Source: Planoprotostelium fungivorum
Taxonomy: Eukaryota; Evosea; Variosea; Cavosteliida; Cavosteliaceae
Direction: 5' to 3'
Assembly: GCA_003024175.1 (NCBI GenBank)
Contig: MDYQ01000114.1
Span: forward strand, 1 to 64,000
Length of the DNA: 64,000 nucleotides
Shown: piece by piece, positions 2,384 through 42,680 of the stretch
Layout of the letters: each line of letters opens with the position of its first letter
How positions within the stretch are numbered: position 1 is the first letter of the stretch
The notes under the pieces: model-generated
Told to the model about the DNA's origin: nothing
Databases searched by the model: none
Seen by the model: the letters and a program-made list of their open reading frames with translations, nothing else
Position numbers and translations under genes: made by a program

Positions 2384-2385
2384 AC

Positions 2386-2391: not shown

Positions 2392-2412
2392 TGCAGTCAC
2401 ACTTTCGTTGTC

Positions 2413-16969: not shown

Positions 16970-19900
16970 ATGAGGCAGCTGCTCCTAATCATTTTACTAT
17001 TCGGATTATCTCACGCTGTCGTTCGCACAGTTGGACCGACAGATGATCTGACCACAGGTGATTGGGGAATCATATGGATGGACGAGGATTCTGAATTCAA
17101 ACAGTGGTCAAGGGTCTGATAGGGAGTGGTAATACAAACATCAGCCTCTTGTTGAACCCTGGAACATATGTTAATGGGCTCCAAGTGCCCGATGCTGCAT
17201 TAACGGCTCTGACCATCCGTTCAGCAGGTGATATGAAGACACGGATGATCCCATTGATTTATCGAAATTGAAGATCCAATCAACATACCTGTCGTGCGAG
17301 GAATATTTCTCATTCGAAATGCCTCGAGTGTACACCTCTCTTATCTCACCTTCATCGGAAGTTCCACTTTAGTGGCAATCGAAGTCGGTCAGACCCGTGA
17401 TTTGGTCATCATCGATCACATTTCGACATTCGGCTCATACTGCAATGATATCCGCATCGATCAAGCACGTGAGTCAATTCGATAGAATTTGACGAGCCTT
17501 GCTGACAGAGGATGCAGTCCAGAGTCTTCTCATCTCCAACAGTACTTTCTCATCCTCCCCTGTCACCGGATGTGCAACCTTCCATTCTCTATACATTACC
17601 GGTAGCTCGAATTACATCAAGTTGGTCGACAACGCATGGTCGAACAAAGTGAGAAGACAGTCTCCATCCATCATCTCATTCTACCGACAGATATTTCCAG
17701 AGGGCATATACATCGGCAGTATCATCTACCTGGGAAACATCAAAGCAACCAACGTCCTCATCGATCAGTGCACCATCACCAACATCCTTCAGAAGGACCA
17801 ACAGAATCTCATCGATTTCGCGACCAACAACATCATCACGCAGATCAACGTGCGAAGTGTAACCATTCACAATTGTGCGGGAAGAAATCAAGCCAACATC
17901 TTCAACGTCGCACAGTCCATTGCCAATTCCATCGTGGTGCAGGATCTGAGGGTGGAGAATTCGAGTTACGTCACCATCGCCTCGTTCGGTACCACGACGG
18001 TCTCTGCCATAACTTTTGATGGGTGGGTGATGTTCTCATGACAGATCTGACATGTTATGATAGGTGGCACGTGTCAAACAGTCCCATATTCGAGGTCTTA
18101 AAGATCGATGTCCAAGTGAACTCCCCCTTCGTTTCGTTCGATAATTGTCTCTTCGCGTCGTCTTCGTTTCACGCCATAATCAACAACATGGGAGGCTCCG
18201 CTATCCTAGGTGAATCCATTAGTTCCTCTCATCTGATCACCTGACGCGTTCGTCTCAGCCTTTTACATGCACAACGTTACCTTCGATACTCTCCATCTGT
18301 TCAACGAGATCGCTCAGATCACAAACGAAGCGTGGGCCTATTCAGCGCAAAGCAGTCCGGTTGTGGTGAGACGAAGAGAAAGCCATCGGAAGAGTTGACC
18401 TGATCAGATGTCGTTCACGGGCTGCACCTGGAGAAATAACACCGGTGTGGGAACCCACATGGTTCGCATCGCTGCGGTCAGTACGTCGGCACCCGTGATC
18501 CTGATCGTCTCGTACGTTGTGATGACGTCACGATTCGTCATCGACTGAACGTTTGCAGTGATTGTGTCTTTGATAACAATCGCAAGTTCCAGTCGATGTT
18601 CTACACCGGTTACCAGACGAAACTATTAGAGCTGCACGTGAGTATTAGTCTCACTCTCGCATCTAAAAAGGATCGCTCCAGGTGGAGCGAAATACTCTAA
18701 TCGACAATGCTATGCCGCAGTTGACACCGGAAGGTACTGCTATCTTTTATTTCCGCGGAGGTGAACTTTTCATTTATCACAAGTTGAGATCTCATTTTCA
18801 TACAGTCATCGGTCGTGCATATGTGACCAACAATTTATTCTCGAACAACAACCTGGTTAATTCTGGCATATGGTGAGTCTCACCCGCTTCATAAGACTCA
18901 CACGATCCAGCTTGTTCATTTCGAACGTACAGAGAGGAGAATATAACATCACGGGAAATACATTCAACGGGTGAAATCATTCGTGGTAATTGTGTTGACA
19001 TCGAATAGAACTCTCGGTGGAGGTATCTCTCTCGTCGCTGCGGTGAGATGCATCAGATAACAAAACGATCTGATGAGAAATAGACTGGAGGGGGCACGAT
19101 CGTCAATAATGTCTTCAGCAATGGAACTCTCTCTGCTTTAGCGATCGATGGTACTTGGAATGCCGTTCTGGTGAGCAGAATTTAATCTTTATTTCTCTTC
19201 ATTCTTATTCGATCTTTATTTCTCTTCATTCTTATTCGATCTTTATTTCTCTTCATTCTTATTCGATCTTTATTTCTCTTCATTCTTATTCGATCTTTAT
19301 TTCGCTTTATTCGTATTCAATCGTGAAACAGATCGATGGCTTGTACTGCGATGGTTACAACACTAAATTCGCACGAAAATACGGAGGGTGTATATCAGGT
19401 GAGAAGATGAATCACTTTGACTGGAATTCATTCGGTTCAGTTGCCACCACTCAATCGATCACTCGCCTTCAATTGAAAAATAGTGTTCTCTCGACTTCAA
19501 CTGCACAGGAGGGTGGCTTAGCTTTCATATCCATCTACAACTTCGACCAGATCCAGGTAGATCTCTCTTCGCTGTTCGTGATTGATGGTGGTCAGGTGTC
19601 CAATGTCATCTTCAGACAAGGGTTGGCATCTGAAGGTGGTGGCCTCTTCTTGTATTCACGTTCGACTTCTGGAAACGTCACCGTGTCTGATTCATCTTTC
19701 ATCGGAAACCAAGCTCTCTCTGCAGGTGATCCTCCTTCTTAGTTTACGCCTCCATCGTTGTATAACGTTCTATCGTTGGTTACGATAAGAAATTTAAAAT
19801 GGCATAAATTAATCTCTTCGTACTGAACGATACCACAGGAGGATTGTATGTGTCCGGACAATCTTATTCGGTCAAGTTAAATCGTCTCACCTTCGAAGAC

Positions 19901-22900
19901 AACGCAGCCTCCATATCTGGTGGTGCCCTACTGGTACATTCATTCTCTCACGCATCGACTCACCTATCATAAGATATCTGGCCAAGGAAAGAGATACAAC
20001 GTGCAGAACAGCAACTTTACAAATAACAACGGAAAAGTGTTGGGTGGTGTCATCAGCATCACGAAAGAGACTCAGATCCAACTCTTTTATTTCTCCAGCA
20101 TAAGAATCGTGAACGGTAGCTCTCTCGTGGGTGGCTGCATAGCCACAGCAGGTGATCTCACATTCAGATCAGCTCATCGTCCACTTGATGGAGATTCATC
20201 GTGAAATAGGTTCGGTCAATTTAACGGTGGCAAATTCAACTCTGATCTCTTGCACTGCATTGAAGGGAGGAGGAATCTTATCTGAAGGAGACGTTCGATT
20301 GCCCGCAGATCTGTGGGTGGCTGGCACTCAGATATCAAACAGCTACGCACAGACGGGTGAACAGATATCCTAGAGAATAACGATTAAATCTGAATAGGAG
20401 GTGGAATCTTTGCATCGATTTTAACCGAGTTGAGATTGGTCAACAATAGGTTCACGAACAACCAGTGAGTCATCGCGTGGAAACGAAGATGAACGTATGG
20501 CAGGGCACAATATTACGGAGGAGCTGTGAGGGCGGAATCGAGCGTTGAGAAGGTGTCATCGAGGTTGTCTCTCTTTGATTCGAACGTGGCCGGTGCTAAC
20601 GGTGGTGGTATATCGATCTCTGCCGCTTCGGATGTCAAGATCATGAGGTATGTTAACTGTCAATCGATTCGTTATTTGGATGATGATCGAGATCAGTACC
20701 ATCTTCCGTAATAATGAAGCGACCGATGGTGGTGCCGTGAGCATTCAATTGTTGAGTCCAATGAACGAGTTGAAATGCACCGACTCTTCTTTCGATGGTA
20801 ACATTGCTTATGGATCAGGTGATTATCGTTCATTCCATTTCCTTATCCTATTTACTTTCACGTAAAGCATTATGTCGAGATTAACAATTTGTGTAGGAGG
20901 AGGTATTTCTTCTACCTCTGCGAATCAAACCTTCATCTCGAACTGTAACTTCACATCCAACATCGCGAACAAGGTACAGTTCATGAAAGATAAACATTCC
21001 TGATCCATACAAAGGGAGGATCTCTCCACACGGAGCAGTACACTTATGTCGAAAATTCTCAATTCACATCGAACAACGCCACCAACGAGGGTGGTGCATT
21101 CTATCACAACCGAAGGGCTTACGATCGAGTGCGCATCGTTATCCAATGATGATTCGAAGTTTAACTTTTCGTCAGGTGAAGAGGAGTGAAGGGAGGGGAA
21201 CACAGATTGTCAGCAGTTCCTTCGAAGAGAATTGGGCGGGTGTACAAGGTGGAGCATGTTCGATCGTCAGCCCCATCTACGAGGTTCTGTTCGATCGTTC
21301 GGAGATGAAACACAACGCGGCCGTGAAACAAGGAGGAGCCATCCAATTGTCAGGTGATTGAGATAAGAGACGAATCGTTGACATTCAAAGGTATCGGTAG
21401 CGTGCAAAACAGTCAATTCTCGTGAGAAGTGAAGGATGTGAGGAGAATATTCTAAACGGTACAGGGACAACAGCGCAAAATCAGGAACTGCAGTTTCCTT
21501 AGACATGAACACCGTCTCTTCTTTCGATCAGAACGACATGAAGAACGATCAGATGGTGAGATCTCGTTCCTCATCGTTCGACGAAACTAAATCGATGAAA
21601 AAGGTTTCGCTGAGTAATTCTTCCTCTGCCAGGGGTGTAACCGTATCATCCATATCCTGCCTACAAGATTACAAAGCAGTCACGAAGAACACGACTGTGA
21701 TCTGTGAATACGTTGATCCGAGGCAGTACATCATCCAAGTGAGTCGATCGCATCGACTCGACATCGACGATGTGACAGACCGATCCCAATCGAACGAAGA
21801 TCATCGTAGGGAGCACCCTCGCCGGTGCCTTTCTCATCGTCGTCGTCGCCGTAATCATCGCTATCTTGATCAAGAGGAGAGAGAGGAAGAAGCACAAGGC
21901 CGAATTCGAGCACAATCTCAAACTACTCAACTTGCAGAGTGCGAGTAAGATGGTGGTAAGTAGATGAAGGAGAGATGATTTTGATTTGATGTTAGATCGA
22001 TTACGCGGACATCACGGGGAAGAAACAGATCGGAGAGGGAGGTGAGTTGATGTGATGTCGATCTCCCTGATGAATCGACACAGCCTTCGGTGTGGTCTAC
22101 AAAGCGAAATGGTGGGATACAGTTGACATAATGACATGAATCATGTGTATCGTTTGGTTCATTCGACTGAAATAAGAAAAGGAGACAGACTGATGTGGCA
22201 GTGAAACAACTGTTATCCCAGGTGATCACCAGACGATTCATCTCTTTTCATCGATTGATCTTCGTAGGAAGTGGATCGCGAGCAATTGGCCAGCTTTCTC
22301 GATGAGATGGCTCTCATTCAGGGGTTACGAACACATCCGGTGAGTCTTTCTATGGATACGACGACTCATCATCACTCTTAGAATGTAGTCTTGTTCTTGG
22401 GTACAACCATTCCCCCTCAGCCACTCAGTTTAGTGACCGAGTACTGCGAGGGAGGATCTCTGGACAAGTGGCTGCGACAGAACAGAGACGTTGTCACCAT
22501 AGATCAGCAGAAGAAATTCATCATAGGAATCGCATCCGGAATGGTATGCATCATCCATTCACACGATACCGATTAGTATACACGTTGACACTTGATTTAT
22601 CATGACTGAACGGGAACAGTTCCACTTGCATAAGGAGAGAATCATCCACAGAGATCTGGCCACCAGGTGAGCCCAACGAAACCATAACGAATGACGACCA
22701 TCAGAAACATCCTCTTGCGAGCGGGAGATGTAAAAATCAGCGATTTCGGTTTCTCTAGGAGGCAGCACGGACCCCAAGAGATCAACAAGACCTCCACCGT
22801 CGTAGGTCCTCTCAAGTGGATGAGCCCGGAAGCTCTTCAGCGACAGGAATATTCCATCAAATCAGACAGTGAGTCCACATCCTACCTTCTATTAGGCTGA

Positions 22901-23352
22901 CGTTGATCAGTGTGGAGCTTTGGGTGATTCAGATCATGAAGAAGGATTCGCGTTTACGATGTTAACTCTTTCAGTGTCGTTATGTGGGAGATCATCAACT
23001 GTGAAGAACCTTGGACCGATCTGAAACCATTGGATGCGGCCATCGGCGTCGTCGCGGGAGAGCTGAGACTATCTTCCAACAGCAGTGATGATCAGGTCAA
23101 CACCGTCATGCAGATGTGCTGGAGAGATGTGATGATGACATCATCGATGAAACGCAAGACTGATTCCTGCAGAATCCAGACGATCGTCCAGATTTCGGAG
23201 AAGTCCTTCAGATGTTCACAGAGAGGGACAGCATCAGGGACATGGCTTATCGTAAAGTCTCTGATCCCCATCGGATGCAGAGCCATCCTTACGCGAACGT
23301 GAACGATACCGATGATAGATGGTCGAACACTTCTTCTCAATACGTACAATGA
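16970..23352 (+). CDS. Receptor tyrosine kinase with Pmp-like beta-helix ectodomain (copy 1)
   Basis: The first residues (MRQLLLIILLLFGLSHA) are a signal peptide. The ectodomain, about 4.8 kb with many 40-60 nt introns, is built from repeats with FxxN followed by GG(A/V)(I/V), for example FTNNNGKVLGGVISI, FRNNEATDGGAVSI and FEENWAGVQGGACSI, the pattern of parallel beta-helix Pmp repeats. One membrane span (LAGAFLIVVVAVIIAILI, about 21820-21870) is followed by KRRERKKHK. The kinase domain runs from about 21985 with IGEGAFGVVYKAKWW, VAVKQL, HRDLATRN, DFGFSR, KWMSPEAL and SDMWSFGVVMWE; all catalytic residues are present. HRDLATRN is the tyrosine-kinase form of the catalytic loop. The tail contains HPYANVND and ends SSQYVQ. 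The ligand is unknown. Two paralogues lie at 32-43 kb. Confidence 0.85.
19183..19323 (+). repeat. Intronic 27-bp tandem repeat (about five copies)
   Basis: The unit TCTTTATTTCTCTTCATTCT plus TATTCGA repeats about five times, the last copy diverged. It fills most of a 161-nt intron (19171-19331) of the first receptor kinase. The intron length is not a multiple of three, and removing it restores the frame between WNAVL and IDGLYC, so the repeat is not coding. It acts as an expanded pyrimidine-rich tract before the 3' splice site. Confidence 0.85.
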
Positions 23353-23557
23353 GGAGGTTGTATAAATGATATATCATTAGAACATGATGACTTCTCGTCT
23401 GTAATATTCACACCTCGAATCGGCACACGGACAATGGAAGAAATGTGGTGTGACGTTGCAATAAAAGCTTGAGATTTCGAACGTCACATCCATGCGATCA
23501 TTCATCATCCACGATAGAATGAACACCGTGATGAACGTGATGTAAGGTATCACAACT

Positions 23558-24118
23558 TTATAGGCTCAAAGAGGCGAGAATCACCAAGAGCAAAGATAAG
23601 AGCACAGGTGCAGCCGTGCTTGCGGGCAGGACGACTAGTGGGTTCTGTCCGCAAGAAGATAGGTGGCTCGAGGTAGATTGCTTTTGGCACGAAGCCTTGG
23701 GGTCACAGATAGCGTCCTTCCAGGAGACATAAATTCTGCTCGGTATACCACTGCAGCCACCGTTGGGAAAAGTCAGATCGTATGTAGCGTTGGAGACAGA
23801 GCTCCTGATGGAGTTGTATGTCCTTTGATTGGTGGTGAGGAAGAAGGGCCTCTTACGAGAATCTTCTGGTGGTGGGATGCAGGTGTTGTTCAATCCGTTC
23901 CACTGGACGTTAGGTTCCGCAGATACAGGTCCGGAGCAGTCGCTCTTCTGATCGTAGTAGGAGACCGAGTAGTTGTTTTGAATCGATTGGACGAGAATAG
24001 AAGAGCCGTCGCCTAAAGAGGTGCACCCAAAGCCCCACACCAAGATAGAGTTGAGCGAAGTGCAGTTGTTGTCTTCGTAATTGTTAACGAAACGTGCAGG
24101 AGAATCATGCAGAGCCAC
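23558..24118 (-). CDS. Cysteine-rich GPI-type surface protein, 5' end unclear
   Basis: An uninterrupted minus-strand frame encodes about 187 residues with about ten cysteines, several sequons and a Pro/Asp region. It ends in a hydrophobic tail, APVLLSLLLVILASLSL, just before the stop, the pattern of a GPI-attachment signal. No ATG opens this frame; it begins after an upstream stop with GTG as the first possible codon. A start exon with the signal peptide must therefore be spliced on from upstream. A candidate ATG-containing exon lies around 24130-24200 but I could not find a junction in phase. The gene is divergent from the oligopeptidase (ATG 24254) and convergent with the first receptor kinase. 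Function unknown. Confidence 0.6.
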   Translation of the reverse strand: MALHDSPARFVNNYEDNNCTSLNSILVWGFGCTSLGDGSSILVQSIQNNYSVSYYDQKSDCSGPVSAEPNVQWNGLNNTCIPPPEDSRKRPFFLTTNQRTYNSIRSSVSNATYDLTFPNGGCSGIPSRIYVSWKDAICDPKASCQKQSTSSHLSSCGQNPLVVLPASTAAPVLLSLLLVILASLSL

Positions 24119-24253
24119 AAACTCGGGCCGTGCTTCTCATTCTCGTCCTCAACCTTCCGACGACTTTTGTACAGATTGATTTCAAACATTTTGGGCCGCA
24201 CATTTTCTTCGAAATTACTTCGGCTAATACCTCATCTGATCTGACCGAGAAGG

Positions 24254-27135
24254 ATGATGATGCTCAAGACCTTCAGTGGCATCAAAGGGGCCTATCACAC
24301 GCCGTTCATTCGATACTCGGTCAGGCCTCCGATCCATGTCATTCCAAAACGATCCATCTTTCCAAGATGGCACGGTAAATCTCCCTTGGCATCAAAAATA
24401 CCAACGCATAACGATCTCGTTCTAGAGGACTCTTCACATCGCAAGCTCACCGATGATTTCCAATGGCTAAAAGACAAAGATTCGAGAAAAGTGCAAGACT
24501 ACATTGATTTAGAGAACAGATACACTCAGAGGAGAATGAGCGAACAAGAGTTCAAATCAAAAGAGAAGTTTGTTTTGGAGGTGAGATCACATCATTCCCC
24601 ACAAGGATGAAGAAGAGATAGCGATTGAAAGAATACGATGAAGGAGAGGTTTTGAATACCGCACCAGAGATCGTAGATGGTTACTCATACTTCACCATAC
24701 AACACAAGGACGCCCAATTTTCCACCTTTGTTCGAACAGATCCGCAGGGCCAGCAGCAGGTCGTACTCGATTTAGATAAAGAGTCCGTCGGTGAAAAGGT
24801 GACTCATCCTCGAAGAGGTGATGTTGAATCATCACAGTACATCGGTCTGGGTGTCACGAAGACATCAGTAGATCACAAATACTTGGCTTATACATTAGAC
24901 ACAGAAGGTGAATCCTTTTACTCTCTTTACGTTAGGGACATAGACAGTGGACAGAGAAGAAAGGTGCAACATCATCATGATGCTTCCATCAGATCTCACC
25001 TTCTCAGCTTGACATCGGCCACGTGTCTAATATCGAATGGAACAACGAGGGAGACTGTATCGTCTATTCTCTCTGCGATCATCATCGGCGACCGCACGAG
25101 GTGAGACACGATGACCATGATGACATCACGTCCAACACTCACACAACGATCTAGGTGTGGGTCATTCATCTCGGCACGGAAGAGAAGAAGAGATTGTTGG
25201 TAGAGAAAGATCCATCATGTTACATCGACATCATCTCAACGAAAGACAGGGTAAGAGGATAACACCTGATCGTATTGATCGTCATCAGGAATTCATCACG
25301 ATCAATTCTTCCTCGAAGAACTCATCAGAGATTCACATGATGTCGAAATCGTTTCGATTCGAACACATCGAGCCACTCGACGCTTCAGACGAGAGAGAGA
25401 AAGCCTCTTCTGCCTCACCTTCATGTGTTCTAGTCAGGAGGAGAGAAGAAGATGTAGAATATTACATGGAACACATGAAGGTGATCGTCATCACACCTGG
25501 TGAAAAACTGAACGAACGAACGTAGGGATTATTCTACATGATTACAAATCGACACGGTATGAGAGACTACGGTGTCATGACTACAACGAGAGGCAAAGGA
25601 GATTGGTCCGAATGGAAATCATTCTTTCCATCGAGGGAATCCGTCAAAGTAGAAGACGTGGACATACTTCAAGTGAGTCTATATTGTCTGTCTACCGTTC
25701 AACTCGACAGAATCATCTGGTGCTGTACGAGAGAGAGAACGGAAGGTGCAGAGTGAAGACCATCGAATTGGACGAACCCCATTCTGCGTCACAGATCGAG
25801 CCGAGAGAGCCGCTGGGGATGTTACAGCCCGGTGTGAACATGGTGAACCTCTTCATATTATCTATCCATGCGCTTGAAGTGTATTGAACGATGAAAGGAT
25901 CCGTACAGTGATAAGGTTCGATTCAGTAACAGTTCTCTCGTCACACCGGAAGCAACTTACGATTACGATGTCACAGAGAAGAAGCTCACTCTATTACACG
26001 AAGGTGAGAGGAGAATGAGGATGTAAAATTGAGAGGCGTGAGAGGGGAAAAGAAGAGACATCGAAATGAAGATGGAGACGATACATGTCACAGCCGCAGA
26101 TGGTGCTTGTGTTCCCATGACGGTAGCTCATCGATCAGATATGTCTTTGAACGGAAGGTGATCGATGCACATCGTTCATGTCATGACAGATCAGGAACCC
26201 TTTGTTACTGATGGGATATGGAGCCTACGGAGAAGTCATGGAGAATTCATTTCAAGAGAACTATCACTATTTATTGAGTCGAGGTTGGGTCGTAGCATTA
26301 GCTCACGTCAGGTATGCAGAAAATAAATAATATCGATTGAATCTGAAACTAATTTCACACAGAGGAGGAGGAGAAAAAGGAGATGCTTGGCACAGGGCAG
26401 GAAGTCTGATGAACAAGATGAATTCACATAGAGATTTCATCTCCTGTGCCCTCCACTGTGTTCAGAGCGGTTACACGAGTCATGACATCATGTCTGCCAT
26501 GACATCCAGTGCCGGTGGCCTCATGTTAGGTACGCAATCCATTTCAAGTGTTTCAAACTGTTGATTCATTCAGCCACGGCCATCAACGAACGACCCGATC
26601 TTTTTCGAGCCGTCATATTGAAGGTACCGTTCACGGAAGGTGAGTGGAAGAGCAGAGAACGAACGCTGACGAGTTCAGTCGTCACGAGCATGACAGACAA
26701 GACGTTAGCTCTGACCGAACACGAACACGCAGAATGGGGAGACCCCCTGAGAGATGCGAAGACGTTCGATTACATGAGAGCTTACGATCCTTATCAGTGA
26801 GTTCCAGATCTGAATGAGAAGAAGAGAGTGACTCTTGTAGGAACATGAGAGAGAACAGAGACGAGTGGCCTCACATGTGGGTGACTGCATCTCTGTTAGA
26901 CGACCGAGTGCCCTTCTGGATGCCGTTACGCTACGTGGCCAAGTTGAGACATCACTTGAGCCCCGAGCTGAGTCGTCGGGTCTTACTGACGATCGATCGT
27001 GATACGGTGAGAGATGTTGGATGGATGGTGGCTGACGATGAACAGGGACACTTTGGTGATGGAGGGAGAGAAGAGAGGAGGAAGGAGAGGTCGAAGGAGA
27101 TCGCCTTCTTGTTCGAGTCGTTGGGATTTCAATAG
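24254..27135 (+). CDS. Oligopeptidase B-like serine peptidase (S9A), likely mitochondrial
   Basis: The prolyl-oligopeptidase family cleaves short peptides; the oligopeptidase B branch cuts after basic residues. The propeller domain begins DDFQWLKDKDSRKVQDYI and contains YLAYTLDTEGESFYSLYV and EWNNEGDCIVYSLCDHHRRP. The hydrolase domain has LLLMGYGAYGE, HVRGGGEKGDAWHRAG, the nucleophile serine in MTSSAGGLML (GGSAGG in most relatives), WGDPLRDAKTF and the catalytic Asp in ASLLDDRVPFW. The His is in DTGHFGDGG. The first about 45 residues (from MMMLKTFSGIKG) are rich in Arg/Lys/Ser with no acidic residue, which suggests a mitochondrial targeting peptide. PREPL-type enzymes are the nearest alternative, but the WGDP and GGGEKG blocks favour oligopeptidase B. 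About 15 short introns. Confidence 0.85.
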
Positions 27136-27286
27136 ATGTACGTGATTCTTTCACACGTCTATAGATATTGCCCTGGCGGGCAGACGCATGTCGACACAGA
27201 ATAGATTTCATTTCCCGGTTGTTTTTTGCGCCGTCGGAAAGAACATTTCTCATTCCAACTGCAGCAGCAACAACAACAACAGCATC

Positions 27287-27751
27287 ATGGTCAGCATTAC
27301 CTACGAAGAGATGCACGAGCAACCGTTACCTCCTGCCCCTTCATTCCGAAGAGAGAGGGGTAGAATGGGCAAGGGAAATAGACAATGTGTACACGTGAGT
27401 TAGACCTGAGTGGGGTGATAAGCTGACTCGTTTCAGTGGTCATTCTTAATTCTCATTGTGGCAATGGCAGCATTGTTTGTACACCTCGAATCACAGTACA
27501 TGGAAGGCGCATTCATCAAGGGATGTGAAGATTTCACGGACTGCGACGCCCAGTATTCAACACAGGAGAACGAACAGCTGAGGGCCCAACTTTCGAATCA
27601 ATCAGCCGTCATACAAAAACTGGCCAACAAGAACGAACAACTGGCGGGAATGATTACTCTGCTACAGAATAGAGTGTCCAAGCTGGAGCAGCAGTCGAGT
27701 GGTGCATACCAACAGAGCAAGAAGATGAAGAACAAGCCCAAATACTTTTGA
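27287..27751 (+). CDS. Small membrane-anchored coiled-coil protein
   Basis: Exons 27287-27394 and 27437-27751 join in phase 0 to give 140 residues. A basic Pro-rich N-terminus (about 36 residues, RRERGRMGKGNR) precedes one hydrophobic segment (WSFLILIVAMAALFVHL). An acidic linker with two cysteines (KGCEDFTDC) follows, then a heptad-rich coiled coil (LRAQLSNQSAVIQKLANKNE, LLQNRVSKLEQQ) and a basic end. The lack of a signal peptide and the positively charged N-side suggest a type II or internal-anchor protein. No family recognised. The CAG/CAA-rich leader just before the ATG (27261-27283) is untranslated here. Confidence 0.65.
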
Positions 27752-27936
27752 TGTACATAAACATCCTGTGAATTTTTAGACGTGCATAGTCTTCTCAGTT
27801 GTTCATGAGGCCAGTGCTCAGTTTCGCGCCGCTGCATGTCCCGTCCAAATAAAATGCGTTTCTTTTAATTTCTTCGACGGAAGAGCAAAGATCATCAGAG
27901 AACGAAAAGAGGCACCCATGCGCTGCACATCCTCTG

Positions 27937-31537: not shown

Positions 31538-31727
31538 GATTACTTGTGTCGAAGAGGCAAATCGTCGTGCCTCAGCCCAAAATTTGACCCAAACTGTCGC
31601 CAGCCCAAAGTGTGACCCATAACTGCGAGTGTCCAGGCATTTGAACATATGTGCACTAGTTTGTATCGCTCTGAGTCGTTTTCCAAGGACAAGCGGCTCA
31701 TAAATCGATCTTTCTTAAACTTTGATC

Positions 31728-32111
31728 ATGCCAAAAGCATGGGTCGTCGCTGCCGCGACCTGTGGTTCAATTTTACTACCTGTTCCTCTCAACTTGTTCG
31801 GTGTCGTCGGTGGACTGGCCACTCTCGCTGTAAAGGGAGCGCAATGGATCACCCGGGAGCAGGCGGCCGAGATGGGCATGACGCTGGAAGAATACGCAGA
31901 GTACTCGGCCGAGGAGGCCGCGTGCCGTAGACGGTACATGGAGGCCGAGAACGCTCGGATCGACAAAATTCATCAAGATGCCTGTAGCAAGTGGGAGATG
32001 AACCGCCGACCCGGCGAGCCAAGACCCCAACGAAGCGATTTCGCAGATGAGAAGTGTCTTCGTACTTTTATTTCTTTTTCGAAGAGATTTCCTCTATTCT
32101 TGTTCATCTAA
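31728..32111 (+). CDS. Small protein with hydrophobic N-terminus; overlaps kinase 3' end
   Basis: A single exon of 127 residues starts MPKAWVVAAATCGSILLPVP. The N-terminal ~38 residues are hydrophobic, then an amphipathic, acidic helix follows (EEYAEYSAEEAACRRRYMEAE) and a Pro/Arg segment (NRRPGEPRPQRSDF). The last about 20 residues are hydrophobic and run over the stop codon of the convergent receptor kinase gene (32094). The true end may lie earlier if an unseen intron is present. The start is 190 bp from the divergent small membrane protein gene. No family recognised. Confidence 0.5.
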   Translation: MPKAWVVAAATCGSILLPVPLNLFGVVGGLATLAVKGAQWITREQAAEMGMTLEEYAEYSAEEAACRRRYMEAENARIDKIHQDACSKWEMNRRPGEPRPQRSDFADEKCLRTFISFSKRFPLFLFI

Positions 32112-35100
32112 GAGGTTGGCTTCTTCCGTTGCTTCTGTCATTCTGTTGAGTCGATCACTGATGCCCAGCTGATTGCAGATTCCATCGAAATCGGGCCTGC
32201 CGAGAGGTTGCGTCGTCCAGCACACTTGGTTTGTGTCAATGAAAGCTGATAAGAATCGTCTTGACTCACAGATCATCAACTGGGCGAGTTTGATGTCCGT
32301 CTGTGGAGGGATCTGAAGGCGAAGACCTTTCGTGGTGACACCTATGGCCACTTCCATGGCTCCCATGTCTGGATAAGGTTCATGGCCCGTAAGAATCTCC
32401 CTGCATCAAGTTTAAACTTCATTCACTCAATGTATGAGAATAACGATGTGTCACCAGCAAGTCACGCCATAGCTGAACACATCAGATCGTCTCGAATATT
32501 CTCTGTTGACGATCGCTGTTGAGATTCAGTCTGAATCGAATGTGGTGAGAGATCGATGGGATGATCACCTTCAGGTGCCATCCATTTGATCGGTCCAACG
32601 GATGATTTTGTCTTTCCCGATGTCTCATCGTCTTTTTGGATTCGACTCATACCAAAATCAGACACTTTGACTTCACCGTGGCTCGTCAACAAGATGTTTC
32701 TTGCAGCTAGATCTCTGTGTATCTATGCACATCAGTATCTCTCCAGATCTTCCCGACTCACAATGCCCTCTTTGTGAAGATGCAGCATGCCCAGAGCTGA
32801 TGATGATGAGTGCAACGATCGTCTTATTGTGTCTCACCGATTCCTTCGATGTAGCTGACTCTCTGTCTTAGTGTCGGATTGTTCTCTGCGATGTGATGAT
32901 CTAGAGCACCTCCACCACAGAACTCAGTGATGAGACTGAGAGGCTGAGGCGGGAACGTCATTCCTGAATCGTCGGTCAATGATTCGAAAGTTTAATATAA
33001 AATGAAGACGAGAGGACGTACCGACAAATGACACGACATGTGGATGAGCTCTGAGGTTCTGTATGATGGACACTTCGTGAAGGAAGTCGTTCAGCTGTGA
33101 CTCTGTCACCATCTCTGCCTTGATCTGTTTCACTGCCACATGTATTCCCTTCTCATCGTCATTTTTCACCTATGCCATACCAGATCATCTCACTCTGAAC
33201 ATAGCTGCGAAGACGATACCGAACGCTCCCTCTCCAATCTACCACTATGTCAATCTCTCTCCTTCTCTTCTCTTCACCTTTTTCATGTTCTGCAGTTGAT
33301 CGAAATCGATGACACTCTTCTTGGCGGCTCCCAGTTGGATGACAGAGAAGTTGATGGCATCGTATGAGTTGCCGTACTTTGCATCACGGATCAATGCCTT
33401 CTGTCTGATTGATCTTCTGTACATGATGATGCCGATGATGATGGCTGCGATGATAGCGATGCCGGCCACAGATCCTATGGATGCACCTATGGCTACGTTC
33501 TTGTTGTGGTCTTCTACATCGACGATCTATCGCTCATCAGATCTCATCAAAGCACAAGATACATCGCATCGTAAATGTGAGAGTGAATTTGTAGATGTTG
33601 GTTTACCTGACCGATGGTGGATGAAGGAATGATGACGCACTGACTGATATGATTTGTGACGTTCAGCTGGTATCCTGAACCACAGACGATGCTATTGCCT
33701 ACATCTTGCGAATTGTTTCCTCATCAGATGTCAACAGATAGCGAATCGATCGATCTTCTCACCTCCATCGATTAACGTTGATGATGCATCCATCTTCACC
33801 ATCAGTCTTCCTCTGATGTCATTATTTCTCAGTGATGCCACTCCTTCCTGCTGTAACACGATGCTTCCGTCCTCGATGTGATTGTTGGATATGTCGGTCA
33901 CATCCGATAAAACCATCGTTGAGTTCTGATTGTCATCACGGAAGGAAGAGGAGCTGATGAGAGTCTTTCCACTCGATGTGATCGATGATCCAGACGGCGA
34001 TGTGTTTTCACTGAAATCGTTACCAGTGACGTTCAGAGTGACCAATGCTTGGTTTCTCTTGTGATGTGAGAGGAAAGTTGCGCTCCTCTTGGATGTGTTT
34101 CTCTGGATGATGAAGTCGATGGCTGTAATCCATCAGATGAAGCGTATCGATCTCTCATCACCTCCTCCTTGTATCGCGGCATAATTGTTGATCCACTGCA
34201 CGTCCGTCAGAGTGACGTCACTGTTGGTTATCTGGCAGCCGCCTCCATGATTACCCGCAGTATTGCTCATCATGACACTATCTCTCAATTGTACCTTTCC
34301 GTATCCACTCTGAATATACATTCCTCCTATCGAATCACATCAATCACAAAATCCATACAAGCGAATTCGAAGGGTGTTGCTCTCACCCGCATTTCCAGAA
34401 GCATTGTTGTTCTTCATGGTCGTATTCTTCATATTCACATCCACATAAGAGGTGGATGACAGATAGATGGCACCTCCGTCCCCCGCTTGATTCCCATTCA
34501 ACTCCGTGTGATCGATTGACATCGACAACGTCTGCGAGGCTGAGATGAACACGCCACCTCCTTGTGTTCCATTGTTCTCTTGCACTGAACATCCCTCTAG
34601 AATGATCTGATTGATCTGCCCGGTAGAAGCGATAGCTCCTCCTTGTGGTCCGTTGTTGTGTGAGAAACTGTTGTTGCGTAGTTGAATCTGGTTGATCGTG
34701 CCGCTCAGAGATAGTGCACCGCCGGTGTATCGAGCCTGCTGGATGTCAGCTGATGACGTCAATTGATGGGGAGCTGCATTACCTCGTTGAATGAGAAGAT
34801 CGAATCACTGATCGACACGTTATTGACTTGTGATGAGATCTGTATGGCTCCTCCTTGTTGTCCCTTTCCGTTGTAAGCTTGCAATGCATTCATCGCGATA
34901 TCGCTATTCTAAATCAGTAGATACATCGAAGAGATACATACCTCATATCAGAGGAGACAGAGATACAAGAACCGAAATAAGCTGAAGAGAAGTAACATTT
35001 CACATCGAATATAGATGCAGATGTCATCATCTGTGGTCCACCCATAATAATGGTTCCTTCTCCTTATCAGTTATCGATTCACTCAGAAGAGTAATGATGA

Positions 35101-37392
35101 ATGTAGTATCATGAGATGATTACCTCCTTCTAATACTGCAGTATTGTTGATCGACATCACATCGTTCAACAATATCGATTGAATAGCTCCTTGTATCGAT
35201 ATCGCTCCACCAGATGTGCCAGCAGAGTTGTTCCGCACCTCAATATCATGCATCCCTAGGGTGACCGTATCGCTACCGATGTGAAAGGCGCCGCCAAAGA
35301 CATCACCATAGTTACCGTGAGCTGTTACGTTTCTAACGAGTATTTGAGGTATATCTCCACTCAGGTAAAAACCTAAATCCATCAGACTTCGATTGAAATC
35401 AAGTTGAATGATGAATGTTTCACCCCCTCCGTTATCTCCGGCCGAATTTTGGCTCAGAGTGATGTTCTCGATTTGTAATAGAATCTGTGCGTATCAGTTG
35501 ATGTCACGATGACGAGCGAAATTGTTCATTAACCTCAGTCGGAACAGGAGCAGTGCCAGTGGGAGGAATGATACTGATGTAAGCAGCTCCTCCGTTTTCC
35601 TCGGCTGTGTTATCGATAAACTTTGTGTTTGCAATGATGATCTGGCTTTCGTCAGCAAAATGTAGTTTCAGAGCGATTCATCTTTATCATGATGCATCTA
35701 CGTGATGTGATGAATCACCTGAACAGCTTCTGAGCTGACGAAGATAGCACCTCCATTTCTTGGTGTGCTGACTCTTGTGAAGGTACACCCATCGATCCGT
35801 ATGCTGTTCACAAACGCCAAGACAGCGACGGTACCTTTCATTTCACATCAGATCAAAGAAGGTCAACACTGGTCACCCGTGAGAGATTGAATGTCGGTGA
35901 ATGTACAATTGATGATCTCGTGGTTGTAGTAACCAATGGAACTGAAGGGTTGATACACTATCACGGCTGTAGAGGAATGAGTTGATCGGTGCGCTTGTGA
36001 ACGACTCACATGACTGCGTGTTGACTATATTTTGGAAGATACTGTTCCTCACTTGAACTCCACTGTAAGCTGCAAAGATGTGAGACGAGAAGAAAAGAGA
36101 TCTCACCGTTTCCCGCAAAGATGACGCCGCTGAGGTCGTTCGTGTGGTTGATCACCTTGATCGACTCGATGATGCAATCCATGGAGAATTTGGCGATGTA
36201 GAGGGTGCCCTGACAGTCGAAGAAGGATTCGCTCATGGCGTACAACGATGCATTCTGAGAAAGAATCAGAAGATAACGGGGTGGTGGAGACATCACGTTG
36301 CCGAGTACAAAGACGCTGCGGCCAGCAGCCGTGGATAGATTCCGATAGACATTGTTCCTCGCGGTCAATGAGCCTGATGCAAATCCAAGACCGGCCTCGG
36401 CATTAACGAAGGTACAGTTTTCGATAAGAGAGGTAGTATAATAAGACGCCAAAAAAGTGCCTGGACCTCCGAAGACGGGAGCGATGTTGTTAGCGAGTGT
36501 CGAATTGTAGAGGTGGAGGTTGTTGATTTCTCCAGGATTCGTGCCGATAGTGATAGAGGCATAGACCTGTTGAGGGTAAGAAGAGATTAGTGCTGGAATC
36601 ATACCCCCGAGATGAATGAGTTTCCAATGGTGATGTTGTTATTCGAATCGGTCTGTGAGATGATCAGATGGTGTAGTGGGGGAAAGGTACTCACATAGAA
36701 AGCGAAGCCACTGTATCCCTCAAGATCGATCAAGAGATGATCTACAAAGATCTCGCCAACATGCAACCAGTAGAGAATCTGTGGCTCATATTCTTGAAGA
36801 TATGGGCCGAGAAGGAAGCTACAATTGTTCACGAAACCTTTGTTGATGGTCAAGTCAAACAAGACAACTGCAATCTTCAGTAATCATTAACTGTATGATG
36901 CATTCTCACGTGTCGAAAAGTTAAAGACGGTAATATCTGTGAAATTGACCCGATCTGCGGTGACGATGAAGTCATTCGCGTTGCCTTCCTGATAAACGTT
37001 GTTTTCTAATTTGAATCCTCGCACTTCAAGTTCCCCCGTGAGGTCATCTCTCTGATAAGCAAAGTAGCACTCCTGTATGTGTGTCTTGTCTGACCCCAGA
37101 CCGATAAGCTTGAGTGCCAGGGGATATCTGAAGAGGAAGGGGGGATATGAGCAGCTGGTTTCGGATGTGTTGAAGAAGATGACAACTTCAGCGCTGGTAT
37201 CCGTGGCCGCCTGCGAGAGAACTGTGGAATGATGTGAGACTTTCATCGTCTTAATACACTCTCACTCTGGTCAGCGTTTGTCGCGTTGACTTCATAGACC
37301 ACTGCCAGACTCCCCACCACAACGGAGGTGAGAATGAAGAATCTGATGATGCACATGATAGCTGGGGCTGGGTGTATGCCCATCTTGTCCAT
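32094..37392 (-). CDS. Receptor tyrosine kinase with Pmp-like beta-helix ectodomain (copy 2)
   Basis: The signal peptide lies at 37356 (MCIIRFFILTSVVVGSLAVV); an in-frame ATG at 37392 adds twelve residues. The ectodomain has repeated FxxN/GGAI units such as FSHNNGPQGGAIAS, VRNNSAGTSGGAISIQG and SNTAGNHGGGCQI, typical of a right-handed parallel beta-helix. A membrane span (VAGIAIIAAIIIGIIM, about 33420-33480) is followed by YRRSIRQK. The kinase has IGEGAFGIVFAAMF, VAVKQI, HRDLAARN (the canonical tyrosine-kinase loop), DFGMSR and KWMAPEG, all expected to be active. It ends shortly after the C-lobe (PDFDGICNQLG) with an acidic tail. A shortened inverted copy lies at 2413-3246. The gene is head to head with copy 3, about 300 bp between start codons. 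Confidence 0.85.
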
Positions 37393-37414
37393 CCTATCGA
37401 GGCTGACATACTGT

Positions 37415-37660
37415 CTAACTTGATATTTGGGCGTTGGTCGGGCTACGAAGCCTCATCTTTCCTTCCACATCCTTCATCTCTCGCTGCATCTGACACCCGA
37501 TGAAATTGTATGTCAGATTTCGATCTAACATCGTGCAAAGCTGAGAGAATTCTCTCTCGCAGTATGGCGGCGGCTGACATTTTTTAAGTTGTTCTCTGTG
37601 AATGAGCTTGTCTGACGGTGGTAGCAGTTGATGGCTTGAAGGTGCGACCCTAACCAACAT
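37415..37660 (-). CDS. Possible small cysteine-containing protein between divergent kinases
   Basis: An intronless ATG frame of 81 residues lies in the gap between the two divergent receptor kinases. It has four cysteines (KKCQPPPYCEREFSQLC and FIGC) and a charged helical end (QMQREMKDVEGKMRLR). The composition looks coding, and the spacing is loosely like small mitochondrial disulfide proteins, but it is not a twin CX9C pattern. If real, only 32 bp separates it from the next start codon. It may instead be promoter DNA. Confidence 0.35.
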   Translation of the reverse strand: MLVRVAPSSHQLLPPSDKLIHREQLKKCQPPPYCEREFSQLCTMLDRNLTYNFIGCQMQREMKDVEGKMRLRSPTNAQISS

Positions 37661-37692
37661 CGTGATACTTCTTCACAGCGCGCATTGCGGAG

Positions 37693-40600
37693 ATGAAGCC
37701 ATTACTCTTAGCGATCGGTTTCATCAACACAGTTCTATCACTGGCCGTATATCAGGTCAACACTACAAATTTTCAGGACGGTGAGCCCGCATGTTGGTGC
37801 AGTGTTGAATGTTATGATTAAACACTTTAGTCTTGAATCAATCGGTGGTTGGAAGTGACGCAGATATCTCTATCGTGTTTGAAGGGGGAGAATATAATTG
37901 TAACGAAAGGTGAAATTGAGCATCGACGTTGGTTTCATCTTTCCGACATCTCATCAGCTACACTTGGACTTCGAAACAGATTTCTATTCAAGGATCGAAT
38001 TCAACCGTGCTGACAGACTGCTATTTCTACTTCTATGGAGGAAACAACCAGAGCTTCCGCATCTCAGACCTCACCTTCTTCAATTATTCCCTCTCGTGGA
38101 ATACCACTGGTGCTGTCTACGGCCAGGCTTTTTATCTGCAGAGAGTTCGATATGTCGATAACATGAACAGTGAGTGAACGTCACACTCTAAAATGAATCT
38201 CACGGCATCCAGCCAAGGTCTATTCACGTATGCCGACTTTCGTGGACGACTGCTTATTCACAGGAGCGACCAGCAGTGGAGGTCTTCTCGTCTTAGACAG
38301 AGCACCCTCCTCCCTTGTCAGCAACACCATCTTTCGAGACTCTCCCTTCAGCTCTGGTATTGAAGTCGGCTATGGATCCGCTCTCATCTACCTCCTCAAC
38401 ATTTCTGTGACTCTGAATAACATCGCCTTCGACAACTTGTACCGTGGCATCCTTCCCTCCTGCATCGACTTCACCTCTTACCAGTTAACTGTGACCGCAC
38501 AACATCTCAACGTCACACTGTCTGCTCCCGGTGCCACCTTAATCGATGATACCTTAACCGTCTTCTATCGCCTGCACATCAAAGATTCTTTCTTCCAAGG
38601 AGGAGACGGCACTGCAACGAATCTCATGTACGCCACATCAGGCCCCAGTGAGGTCACTCTCACTGGATGTTCCTTCACCAACATCCACATGCAACCTGGA
38701 GGAGCTATCTTCCACTCGAAAGGAAATGCAAAGTTGACCCTCACGGACGTAACGGTGCGGAATCTGACGGGCATAGTCTATCGAACCGATGCCATCCTCA
38801 TCCAAGATTTGGACGTTGCAGATTCGGGCCGTCCTCCATCTTCCCTCTTCATCAGAAACTCCATCTTCGAGAACATCAAGGATGGTTTTTCGGCCGGTGA
38901 GTCGTACTCTTTTACAGTGAAATTGATAGTCACAGTGTTCACCATGAAGACATCCAACGTGGACGTAGAGAATTCCTCCTTCATTGATATCTCTACCAGA
39001 CAGGGAGCTCTCTATCATCAGATCAGTGGGGTCTACCAGTCAGGCATAACCATTCGAAATAGTCGATTCACCCGTGTGGTCTCCTCCATCGACGGAGGCG
39101 CCATCAGCTTGACTGGAGTCTTCTCGAACGTGAGCCTCTCGGAAGTTCAATTTGAAGGGAATACGGCCGTGGGAGCAGGAGGCTCTCTCTTTATCAGCGG
39201 TGCGGCTGAACGAATCGAATTGAAGAACATCGTGGCGAGAAATGGTCGATCCAGATTAGACGGAGGACACATCTACTTGGGCGTGTCGAGTGTGAGTCTC
39301 TTGTGATGACGCCATCATTCGTCATAATGACAAACGCAGGCTGGCCTCATCACCGTGGACAATTGTACGTTGACTGTAGGTAATGCTGAAACCAACGGGG
39401 GAGCGATCTCCATCACTGGTGTCGACACGAATATGACATTGAGCAATTTGAACATGACCTCGAACGCTGCGGTATCACGAGGGGGTGCCATCAGCTGCAA
39501 GCTGTCGGCCGGTCGGCTGGACTTGTACAACGTCAGTGTATCCAATAGCAACGCAGTGAGCGGAGGAGCCATCTTTTTGAGAGGGACACCTGATCAAGTC
39601 ACGCTGAACGGTGTTGAGTTGACGAGTGAGTGATGGAGAATTGGATGAAAACTCATCATTTGAGCAGAAAACACGGCGAAGAACCAAGGAGGGGGCATCT
39701 ACCTGGGCACTACGGGAAATGGTATGATATCTCTGGATGATGTCTCCATGACGGGTAGTTCTGCCCTGTACGGTGGTGCTATCGCTTCGCTGGCGACCAT
39801 GCAAGAGATCAGGCTGACGAACAACTTCATCTCGACATCTTCTGCACAACAAGGAGCTGGACTCTATTTCAGTCCTCTAGGTTCGATCTCCTTGTTGAAT
39901 ATCCGCAACACTAACGTCACAAATAATGAGGTATTTCTCATCACCATCACCATCTTTCATCTATTTCAAATGGATCATTCTTCCACATAAGATCTCGTGG
40001 ATTATATCATTCTATTTCACCCTGTGTGGTCATATGTTGATGATATAGGCACTACTGGATGGTGGAATGGTTTACGTCTCTGGAATTCACCAAGTGGCTA
40101 TCGATCAAGTTCAGATTCTACACAATTCAGCTGGGCAGAATGGAGGAGCTGTCTGCATCTCCGCTTCACAAGGAAGCATCATTCACGTCGATATCAACAA
40201 TAGTTCAGTGCAATATAACAAGGCCGCTAGTGGAGGAGGCATCAGTGTGACGAGCGGCAAGACAGTGATGAATGCGAAGAATTCCTCTTTCTCTCGCAAC
40301 TCGGCCGACAACGATGGAGGCGCTTTATCTTATCAGGGAAATGGTGATTGTACAGAGAGATGTCAAATCGAAGCATATACGATGATATCTTGATTTTCAT
40401 TGATGTGGAACAGATGATGGAGGGATGTTAAATGTGAGCGCTAGCATCATGCTTCAGAATACCGCCAATGTGGGAGGAGCTATTGCATCATCTGGAACCA
40501 TTTTACGAACGAATGACGTCACCATGGATAGTAACACGGCATCTCTCAGCGGTGGTGCCATCTACTCCGTGGGAACATCCATCAGCACGAAGAGACAGAC

Positions 40601-42680
40601 GACTGTGAGGCTGTCATCCAGCAACGATCGGTACAACAATAACACCGCCGGTGAGAGACGATGATGGACACGATATTTATGCTAGATCAGGACAAGGAGG
40701 AGGAGCTTACGTGATCGGAAATGCCATCGTCACGTCGACCGTGTTTGATGGTAATCATGGAAACGGTAGTGATATCAACACTCAACGGGGATCTGTCAGT
40801 CTGTACGGATCGAGTCTGAAGAGCGAGGGCTTTTCTCTTTACGTTGGCACGACGAGCACGGTGAAGAGTCAAGACACGGTGATCGATGAGGTCTACTTAT
40901 CTTCGATGACATCCAGTCTGCAAGCCAATGGAATAGGGTCCGATTCACTCTCTCTGACGTGAGTCGTGGAGATGGCGAGAATCGTATATTGACGATGAAA
41001 AGGTGTTCTCCGGGCCAGAATCTGACGCGAAACAACGGGGGAACATACAGTTGTCAGAGCAATGTGGTCGGCACGACATCGTCTCTCATTTACAGGACGA
41101 ACACAGGTGACGTACAGGAGACAGGATGGTTGAGCTGAGAGATGATTAGATCAGAGAGCTGTTGGCATCGCTGCCGGAGTGTCCGTCGGTTTCTTTGTCA
41201 TCATCGCAGCCATCGCTGCATTCTTCATCGTGAGAAGGTACAGACAGCAAAGGAGAGAGTTGGAGAATGCGAAGCACAGCAACGAATTTGACATGCAGGA
41301 GCTAGTCAAGATCGATCTGGGAGATGCAAAACGGTAATTCATAATAAGATCTCTTTCGCTTACACGCTGAATAGGTGTCTGCTCGATTTCGATGAATTGA
41401 AAGACTTGCAATTGATTGGAAAGGGTTCATTTGGAGGTGAACAGAGTAATGAGAATGTTCATCTGACGAGAAGCAGTGGTGTACAGAGCCACATGGAGGC
41501 AGTTGACTGTGGCAGTGAAGCAGATCATCAGCGATTCCGTATCTGCCGAGCAGTTGAAGGATTTTCTGAGTGAAGTGGCCATCTTGCAGGTGAGCAGATT
41601 GATTCATACTGAATCCGACGTTCAACAGAGTATACGATCTCACCCTAACGTCGTGTCATTGTGAGTCACCTATATTCATTTCGTCTTCTTGTTACCAAAC
41701 GATGTCATCACACGTCTAAACCATTTCAGCACCGGGTTGACCTTCCCTCCTCAACCTCTCAGTCTCGTCACCGAATTCTGTCACGGTGGCGGTTTAGATT
41801 CTTATCTCACCAAGAACGACACACCCCTTGAAGTTCTCAAGGGTATCATGAGAGGCATCGCGCTGGGAATGAATCACCTGCACAGTGAGGGCATCGTGCG
41901 TTCCATCCGAAAGTTATGTTCTGACTTGTACATCGTAGATCCACAGAGATCTGGCCGTCAGAAACATCTTACTCACACAACATCTCGAGCCGAAAGTATC
42001 CGACTTTGGCTTCTCTAGAAGGACGGACGAAGGGTCCGGCGTAACTCAGACCACTATCGGTCCTGTCCGTTGGATGGCACCAGAAGGTGTGCAAATTTGG
42101 CTCTTATTACTCATTTAATGCGTCTGCAGCCATCATCTCACAAGCCTATTCTACAAAGTCAGACGCCTTCAGTTTCGGTGTGTTGGTGTGAGTCGATCGG
42201 TGGAGAAGAGGAGGCTGATGAGGGAGATCAGTTGGGAGATGATCACTGGAGGAAAAGTTCCATACGAAGAGTTGGAGACAGTGGAAGCTGCTCTCGCCGT
42301 GATTCAAGGCACCAGGCCTGCTATTCCCTCGGACTTTGACGATCGAGATCTCATCCAACTCATGACACGTGAGAGACCATCATCATCTTATGTTCTCGAC
42401 ACATGATCTGATGATGACAGTGTGTTGGGGGACTCAGCCTGAGTTCAGACCCGATTTCGGTACCATCCTCGATCGTTATCTATCTGATGTCACACGTACT
42501 CCCGTGGAGAATTTGGGCGGAGAAGTCGTGCCAGAACAAGACGATAAGAGATACACGAGCCCTCACGGCCTGGATGGTGATGCAACATACGCAGCGGTTC
42601 CCGCGATCTACACGGCGACGAAAGAAGAGGACTCTGCTTATTCTTCCATTCCAGGTAGAAGCAATCACTATGAGATGTAA
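37693..42680 (+). CDS. Receptor tyrosine kinase with Pmp-like beta-helix ectodomain (copy 3)
   Basis: The signal peptide is [19 protein letters not shown]. One ectodomain exon is unusually long (about 38230-39300); the remainder is split by short introns. Repeats include [30 protein letters not shown] and [13 protein letters not shown]. The membrane span is [16 protein letters not shown] (about 41185-41235), followed by a basic juxtamembrane region. The kinase has [37 protein letters not shown] and [14 protein letters not shown]. The tail after the C-lobe carries Tyr in YTSP, YAAV, YTAT, YSSI and the final HYEM, so it could recruit SH2 proteins once phosphorylated. It is a close relative of copies 1 and 2, in opposite orientation to copy 2. 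Confidence 0.87.

Follow-up and report, generated by a model that had tools for sequence, protein, structure and literature searches.

Accounts of receptor tyrosine signalling usually centre on animals and choanoflagellates, with amoebozoans as small side branches. Here we analyse three predicted receptor kinase genes (genes 1, 2 and 3, Table 1) of Planoprotostelium fungivorum (Eukaryota, Evosea, Variosea). They are located in the first 64,000 nucleotides of contig MDYQ01000114.1 (GenBank assembly GCA_003024175.1); this whole stretch, further referred to as the window, is a part (C51) of the genome, which comprises 36.86 Mb in 471 contigs. Each protein joins an ectodomain carrying repeats of the type known from the polymorphic membrane proteins (Pmps) of Chlamydia to a transmembrane segment (TM) and a kinase domain. 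It seems to us quite probable, taking the explanation as a whole, that the products of genes 1-3 are type I receptor kinases crossing the membrane once, that they belong to one very large family of this genome and have a beta-helix outside the cell and a tyrosine-type substrate pocket inside, and that two of the genes form a duplicated pair.

Among the closest known systems are the amoebozoan tyrosine kinases (TKs). Acanthamoeba is described as having 22 protein tyrosine kinases (PTKs), seven of them with a TM, 48 SH2 proteins and 12 protein tyrosine phosphatases (PTPs) (PMC4053784). Four TKs with the full consensus, three of them with a single TM, are given for Physarum (PMC4758236), and Cochliopodium minus is reported to have tyrosine kinases (PMC9198077). 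In a paper on holozoan kinomes (PMC8662651), divergent pre-opisthokont TKs are treated as a paraphyletic group, into which the family studied here may fall. Like the amoebozoan TKs of these papers, the family has TK-type catalytic residues outside Opisthokonta and partly a TM receptor layout, and SH2 and PTP domains are present in the genome. Unlike them, it is represented by 143 sites with the HRDLAxRN motif, against 22 PTKs in Acanthamoeba and four TKs in Physarum, sites not being equal to genes. The term "pectin lyase" is absent from the main text of the Acanthamoeba paper (PMC4053784), as is "ectodomain" from the main text of the Physarum paper (PMC4758236), and a search of the open literature found no description of a Pmp-type beta-helix joined to a tyrosine kinase.

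Three further groups of known proteins are relevant for comparison. With metazoan receptor tyrosine kinases (RTKs) such as Eph and EGFR the proteins share the single-pass layout, the HRDLA(A)RN loop and the P+1 proline followed by (I/V/L)(K/R)WM(A/S)PE, and Eph kinases are the best single-domain matches in PDB for genes 2 and 3. In contrast to metazoan RTKs, they have a Pmp-type ectodomain, activation loops without tyrosine, several alignment columns resembling the tyrosine-kinase-like (TKL) group, and a position outside the metazoan TK clade. With chlamydial Pmps they share the FxxN/GGA repeats and, as predicted for one piece of the gene 3 ectodomain, a fold resembling a beta-helix. Where a Pmp has its C-terminal autotransporter barrel, however, these proteins have the TM and the kinase; no autotransporter family is found among Pfam matches up to E 0.5, and the genes are eukaryotic and intron-rich. 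Plant leucine-rich repeat (LRR) receptor-like kinases (GSO1, FLS2, PEPR1) are resembled by three members of the same kinase clade (loci L018, L022 and L025) that have long LRR ectodomains, whereas the substrate motifs are of the TK type instead of the plant Ser/Thr type, and the genes of the window are Pmp-type, not LRR. The family is filed here as receptor kinases with a tyrosine-type pocket and a Pmp-type ectodomain, being neither a Pmp nor a firm member of the TK group.

Gene models were obtained using a gene finder trained on the window and 20 further genome stretches (258 kb), with predictions made on both strands. In the training set the median intron length was 43 nt and the splice consensus was near CAG|GTGAGT. 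The coordinates of all three genes yield complete spliced frames with start and stop codons, and the frames remain open over 39, 28 and 19 introns in genes 1, 2 and 3, respectively. GT-AG introns were rejected as support for the models, because the finder admits no others. The model of gene 2 includes one zero-length exon, hence the 29 real exons in Table 1. The finder originally fused gene 3 to the following gene; in genes 1 and 3, where it ran on, the final exon was manually ended at the in-frame stop (23352 and 42680, respectively). Kyte-Doolittle plots of each protein have an N-terminal hydrophobic peak and one strong hydrophobic span ahead of the kinase (peaks at residues 1124, 945 and 967 in genes 1, 2 and 3, respectively); gene 1 has an additional weak peak at 398. 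By hydrophobicity and domain matches, the order is that of a receptor tyrosine kinase: N-terminal segment, ectodomain, single TM, intracellular kinase. The initial annotation had described three such genes, each with an intact kinase, and the complete spliced frames, hydrophobicity and Pfam matches bear this out. The location of gene 2 on the minus strand was absent from that annotation, and so were the head-to-head arrangement of genes 2 and 3 and its recurrence at other loci.

Table 1. Coordinates and layout of the three receptor kinase genes, associated features and related gene pairs (kinase and TM positions are residue numbers)
Feature	Positions	Strand	Description
Gene 1, predicted receptor kinase	16970-23352	+	40 exons, 1471 aa, spliced model; N-terminal hydrophobic segment, ectodomain of ~1100 aa with beta-helix/Pmp-type repeats, TM ~1124, kinase 1178-1426; YANV and QYVQ in the short tail
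Gene 1, kinase-encoding span (residues 1178-1426)	22017-23214	+	Derived from the exon table
Gene 2, predicted receptor kinase	37392-32094	minus	29 real exons, 1280 aa, spliced model; ectodomain with Pmp-type repeats (GG motifs at residues 423-797), TM ~945, kinase 1007-1257; short tail free of Tyr
Intergenic region common to genes 2 and 3	37393-37692		300 bp
Gene 3, predicted receptor kinase	37693-42680	+	20 exons, 1343 aa, spliced model; ectodomain with Pmp-type repeats, TM ~967, kinase 1031-1275 ([17 protein letters not shown]); several Tyr in the tail
Gene 3, ectodomain piece for structure prediction	38215-39291	+	359 aa; 39-nt in-frame intron 38897-38935 read through
Decayed partial copy of gene 2	2414-3247	+	Four blocks, 81-90% identical, gaps between them
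C255 pair			Gap 241 bp; gene-2-like model without TM peak and without stop
C421 pair			Gap 306 bp; orientation swapped
C128 pair			Gap 467 bp; minus model only 634 aa
C330 partial pair			Gap 193 bp

The combination of ectodomain and kinase recurs throughout the genome. The HRDLAxRN motif was found at 143 sites by exact DNA pattern, a count that omits copies cut by introns (gene 1 among them) and includes contigs that are near-copies; the P-x-K-W-M-x-P-E motif was found at 86 sites. In both cases the reversed control yielded zero. For counting the coupling of ectodomains to kinases, TK positions were taken from 100 listed sites of the 143, the 86 P-x-K-W-M-x-P-E sites and 17 hand-picked ones. 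Of 30 clusters formed by ectodomain exons of the gene-2-like type, gene 2 included, 25 have a TK motif on the same strand at most 7 kb downstream, compared with one of 30 upstream; for clusters matching Pfam Beta_helix the numbers are 19 of 42 downstream and two of 42 upstream. The excess of 25 over one supports the earlier proposal of a receptor family, as opposed to a one-off, that joins a Pmp-type ectodomain to a kinase. Among 24 predicted kinase proteins in 20 loci, the ectodomains of nine contain at least four Pmp-type pairs and those of 15 contain none; the 15 include proteins cut by the ends of the stretches, one TKL kinase and a fused model (L023) in which the count covered 74 residues. 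The exon scan of the genome yielded 79 matches to SH2 and 43 to the PTP domain (Y_phosphatase), so that putative readers and erasers of phosphotyrosine are plentiful.

The kinase domains match Pfam PK_Tyr_Ser-Thr with E-values of 7e-71, 6e-72 and 2e-67 (genes 1, 2 and 3, respectively). In all three the glycine loop, the VAVK lysine, the alpha-C glutamate, HRD, DFG and CWx6RPxF are present. The catalytic loops read HRDLATRN, HRDLAARN and [11 protein letters not shown]; that of gene 1 is interrupted by an intron and accompanied by DFG and GPLKWMSPE, while gene 2 has GPIKWMAPE. All three genes have both hallmarks of TKs, namely HRDLA(A/x)RN and the P+1 proline in P-(I/V/L)-(K/R)-W. The corresponding TKL patterns (the loop HRDLKxxN or HRDLRxxN, and G-(T/S)-x-x-(W/Y)MAPE) were not found, the loop having A...R instead of K.... 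In a column comparison of 14 members, the A and the R within HRDLAxRN and the proline at P+1, all of them TK-type states, each occur in 14 of 14. These three pocket residues are present in 24 of the 26 rows of the family; the two rows lacking them, both from L021, are outside the 14. Judging by these residues, tyrosine specificity and activity of the kinases are likely.

The initial annotation assigned these domains to tyrosine kinases rather than to the TKL group. The TK-type pocket residues agree with that assignment, but the rest of the domain is less uniform, and this leads to the rival explanation that survives best: TKL-group receptor kinases that have acquired tyrosine-type motifs convergently, perhaps of Ser/Thr or dual specificity. 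We regard it as doubtful, though deserving of real weight. Several observations argue for it and weigh against TK descent. The same column comparison revealed TKL-like states at several positions, such as G before the P+1 proline (14 of 14) and H before HRD (11 of 14). The best single-domain PDB match of gene 1 is CTR1, a plant Ser/Thr TKL kinase (175 bits vs 147 for ABL1). On the other hand, gene 2 matches EphA4 better than CTR1 (167 vs 156 bits), and gene 3, EphA5 (165 vs 144 bits). Tyrosine was found in none of the 21 activation loops of the family that were read, those of the three window genes included; the loops are rich in T and S. This count contains near-copies (L013 and L014) and leaves aside loops missed by the pattern, e.g. 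those of L021, L022 and the minus-strand gene of C128. An activation-loop tyrosine is common in TKs, being not universal. In addition, the LRR ectodomain of L018, whose kinase belongs to the same clade, resembles plant LRR receptor kinases.

Two kinase trees were built. Tree 1 comprised 43 rows (26 of the family, seven TK, eight TKL and two other), with weak or short domains excluded. The family forms one clade in it (support 100/99), and so do the metazoan TKs (100/100). Tree 2 comprised 34 rows (14 of the 26 family rows, ten TK, nine TKL and one other), with RIPK2, TGFBR1, L007 and L006 excluded as too long or too short; support for the metazoan TK clade was 100/99. When all columns are used, the family groups with metazoan TKs in tree 1 (88/86) and with TKs in tree 2 (92/93), in both cases without the star by which the program marks a firm branch. 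The approximately unbiased (AU) test rejected neither the family with TKL (p 0.178) nor TK with TKL (p 0.131) for tree 1, and for tree 2 the family with TKL had p 0.198. After removal of the catalytic-loop and P+1 columns (with five rows fewer in tree 1), the family moves among the TKLs in tree 1 (81/78), and the best version of tree 2 holds neither grouping. Even so, the AU test of these motif-free alignments does not reject the family with TK (p 0.163 for tree 1; p 0.394 for tree 2, where the other value was 0.302). In all six AU tests p lies within 0.13-0.39. To judge from these alignments, it is the two substrate motifs that carry the signal for TK descent, as the grouping with TK vanishes once both are removed. 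The earlier assignment is borne out in part: the substrate pocket and the all-column trees agree with it, the TKL-like columns, the motif-free trees and the CTR1 match do not, and the AU tests favour neither side. Column by column, the kinase is a mosaic with TK residues at the substrate pocket and TKL-like residues elsewhere. As such, the family can serve to test a single origin of tyrosine specificity against the possibility of building it by a few changes of the pocket on a TKL kinase.

Not all members of the kinase clade have a Pmp-type ectodomain. Proteins of L018 (C40), L022 (C168) and L025 (C134) have long LRR ectodomains without Pmp repeats, while their kinases fall inside the family's own clade; the resemblance to plant receptors comes from a PDB search with L018, the only one of the three that was searched. 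The same kinase clade is predicted to occur under two kinds of solenoid, beta-helix and LRR.

Genes 2 and 3 are divergent, their starts being 300 bp apart, and the region between them is a candidate bidirectional promoter. The same type of pair, one gene-2-like and one gene-3-like gene, occurs at three other loci (C255, C421 and C128) and in part at C330. A stretch of C225 contains another kinase part resembling the minus-strand gene of C128, without a full pair. Between genes of the same type the kinases are 63-80% identical, compared to 51-56% between types; for the ectodomains the values are 33-47% and 13-24%. Given the recurrence of the pair and the higher identity within types, the pair has most likely been duplicated as a unit with its layout kept. 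By the same identities, the ectodomains appear to have changed far more than the kinases. Two models of these pairs have flaws, which counts against the preferred explanation: the gene-2-like one of C255, which has no TM peak, and the short minus-strand one of C128, which may be damaged or mispredicted. A conserved promoter across the head-to-head pairs was considered and rejected, as their five intergenic regions do not align convincingly. The tails also differ by type: those of gene-2-like proteins (n=4) have 20-39 aa with 0-1 Tyr, and those of gene-3-like proteins (n=3) have 51-73 aa with 3-6 Tyr, a fourth model, which runs into another gene, being uncounted. This difference would fit a division of labour within the pair, the numbers being few.

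Turning to the ectodomains, the combined motif [FIVLM]xxN..A..GG is present in 10, 8 and 9 copies in genes 1, 2 and 3, respectively, and GG[AG]x in 11, 11 and 14 copies. In none of the three genes did any of 2000 composition shuffles of the ectodomain match either count. Many GG motifs are spaced by 25-30 residues, approximately one turn of a solenoid. The repeats had been annotated as FxxN...GGA, and the combined motif agrees with that in all three genes, but FxxN itself is enriched in gene 1 only (18 copies vs a shuffle mean of 4.6). In genes 2 and 3 there are 6 and 4 copies, with 566 and 675 of the 2000 shuffles as high, because F is often replaced by I, V, L or M. FxxN alone was accordingly discarded as a signature of these two genes. 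Of the curated models, Pfam Chlam_PMP (PF02415, cut-off 20.6 bits) scores above its cut-off in gene 1 (25.8 bits) and gene 3 (30.3 bits) and below it in gene 2 (12.6 bits). NCBIfam POMP_repeat (TIGR01376) is over its cut-off in the ectodomain pieces of genes 1 and 2, the only ones submitted, so that repeats of the form FxxN...GGA(I/V/L) are recognised over a curated cut-off. Pfam Beta_helix matches gene 1 (9e-16) and is not listed for genes 2 and 3.

To predict the fold, a piece of the gene 3 ectodomain was aligned with pieces of four paralogous loci; contiguous DNA was used, which places the intron at approximately residues 228-240. The resulting model is all beta, with a mean predicted local distance difference test score (pLDDT) of 78.4 and a predicted template modelling score (pTM) of 0.82. 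Confidence is low at residues 188-194, 201-205 and 225-239, the last of these over the intron. Foldseek matches in PDB are led by tailspikes of P22 and others, polygalacturonases, lyases and the adhesin PfbA. Judged by their names and known folds, nearly all of the 50 matches listed are presumably right-handed beta-helices; the pentapeptide-repeat protein MfpA and two "loop variant" entries (5dns, 5dn0) were noticed as exceptions. A library of viral structures gave two matches at E <= 0.001, both to poxvirus proteins with TM-score < 0.2, which added nothing firm; among its lower matches are many tailspikes and right-handed beta-helix proteins with low TM-scores. The beta-helix expected from the repeats is thus favoured by the all-beta model and the kind of matches, but several points count against it: even the best E-value, 4.9e-3, is weak and none is <= 1e-3, most TM-scores fall within 0.2-0.35, and the model for a piece of the L021 paralogue is unusable (pLDDT 35). 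Against the matches of the Pmp-repeat models stands the exon-by-exon genome scan with Chlam_PMP, which gave only two matches at E <= 0.001, neither of them in the window. A search of solved-structure sequences with the gene 2 ectodomain yielded two matches with E ~0.1, taken as chance. On balance, the one gene 3 piece weakly suggests a right-handed beta-helix solenoid.

The same structural matches bear on what the ectodomain binds. Tailspikes, polysaccharide lyases, polygalacturonases and PfbA would suit an adhesin or carbohydrate-binding scaffold, in which case the kinase would report attachment, as in integrins or DDR, instead of a soluble ligand; chlamydial Pmps are adhesins too. The LRR-bearing relatives point to recognition in general, and we hold this narrower function to be somewhat unlikely. 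Recent transfer of the ectodomain from chlamydia-like bacteria is very improbable and was rejected. It would account for the matches to Chlam_PMP and POMP_repeat, but Chlam_PMP is a short model of 19 positions that also matches E. coli among 14 controls; the genes are rich in introns and belong to a large family; and a prokaryote scan with the gene 2 ectodomain, whose reach is limited to close relatives, yielded 47 stretches with the pattern, among which tblastn found no relative. Hardly credible is the explanation that ectodomain and kinase are separate serial genes wrongly joined: all models are computational predictions, and the fusion and hand-set ends described above speak for it, yet ectodomain exons precede a same-strand TK motif in the 25 clusters counted above, and in the three window genes many introns are crossed without a break in the frame and a TM separates the two parts.

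The explanation we prefer, beta-helix receptor kinases with a tyrosine-type pocket, implies the following course of events. Outside the cell, the solenoid with its Pmp-type FxxN/GGA repeats would present a long, fast-changing surface. A ligand or contact (prey, bacteria, kin or matrix are candidates) would bring receptors together, and the kinase would phosphorylate tyrosines on partner tails and substrates, to be read by SH2 proteins and erased by PTPs. Tyrosine phosphorylation is the most likely output because the substrate pocket is of the TK type. Since no activation loop read holds a tyrosine, the kinase is probably switched on without one, possibly by dimerisation and/or by Ser/Thr phosphorylation of the T/S-rich loop. 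Genes 2 and 3 would most simply be co-expressed as a pair of co-receptors, a weaker part of the proposal; the head-to-head pairs turn it into a concrete prediction. A role in variable surface recognition fits the fast divergence of the ectodomains and the exchange for LRR in the same kinase clade.

If the 143 HRDLAxRN sites, the set of SH2 and PTP domains and the two interchangeable solenoids are taken together, this system would far exceed the amoebozoan counts cited above (22 and 4). A bolder reading, to which we would give a rather low probability, is an independent radiation of phosphotyrosine receptors. A TKL-like chassis would have gained a TK pocket outside animals and their relatives and spread to well above 100 loci, with interchangeable beta-helix and LRR ectodomains; part of the family would work as co-transcribed head-to-head pairs of co-receptors, one with a short, Tyr-poor and one with a Tyr-rich tail, for fast-evolving recognition of prey, bacteria or kin.

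Several further members and remnants of the family were observed. L021 (C124) contains two tandem receptors with Pmp-type repeats and the loops HKDLSTEN and HKELSAEN, of which the latter lacks the catalytic Asp; these are possibly degenerate receptors or pseudokinases. L014 (C330) is a near-copy of the gene-3-like gene of C255, and the TM and the later, GGA-rich part of the ectodomain are absent from its model; it may have been truncated, mispredicted or misassembled. L016 (C134) is a paralogue with an ectodomain of ~2300 aa, in which the exon 1515-3891 encodes 792 aa very rich, by eye, in repeats of S, T, N, G and V. In the window itself, the decayed copy of gene 2 (Table 1) matches the late ectodomain and then a scrap of the late kinase, without the TM or the catalytic core, so the receptor family leaves remnants besides genes.

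Two other features of the window were noted. In the frame translations, short tandem repeats can be seen in a 161-nt intron of gene 1 (19171-19331). Directly 3' of gene 3, a very large gene occupies approximately 42760-53082 on the plus strand, with a putative ubiquitin-conjugating (BIRC6-like) domain, recognised by eye, near its end.

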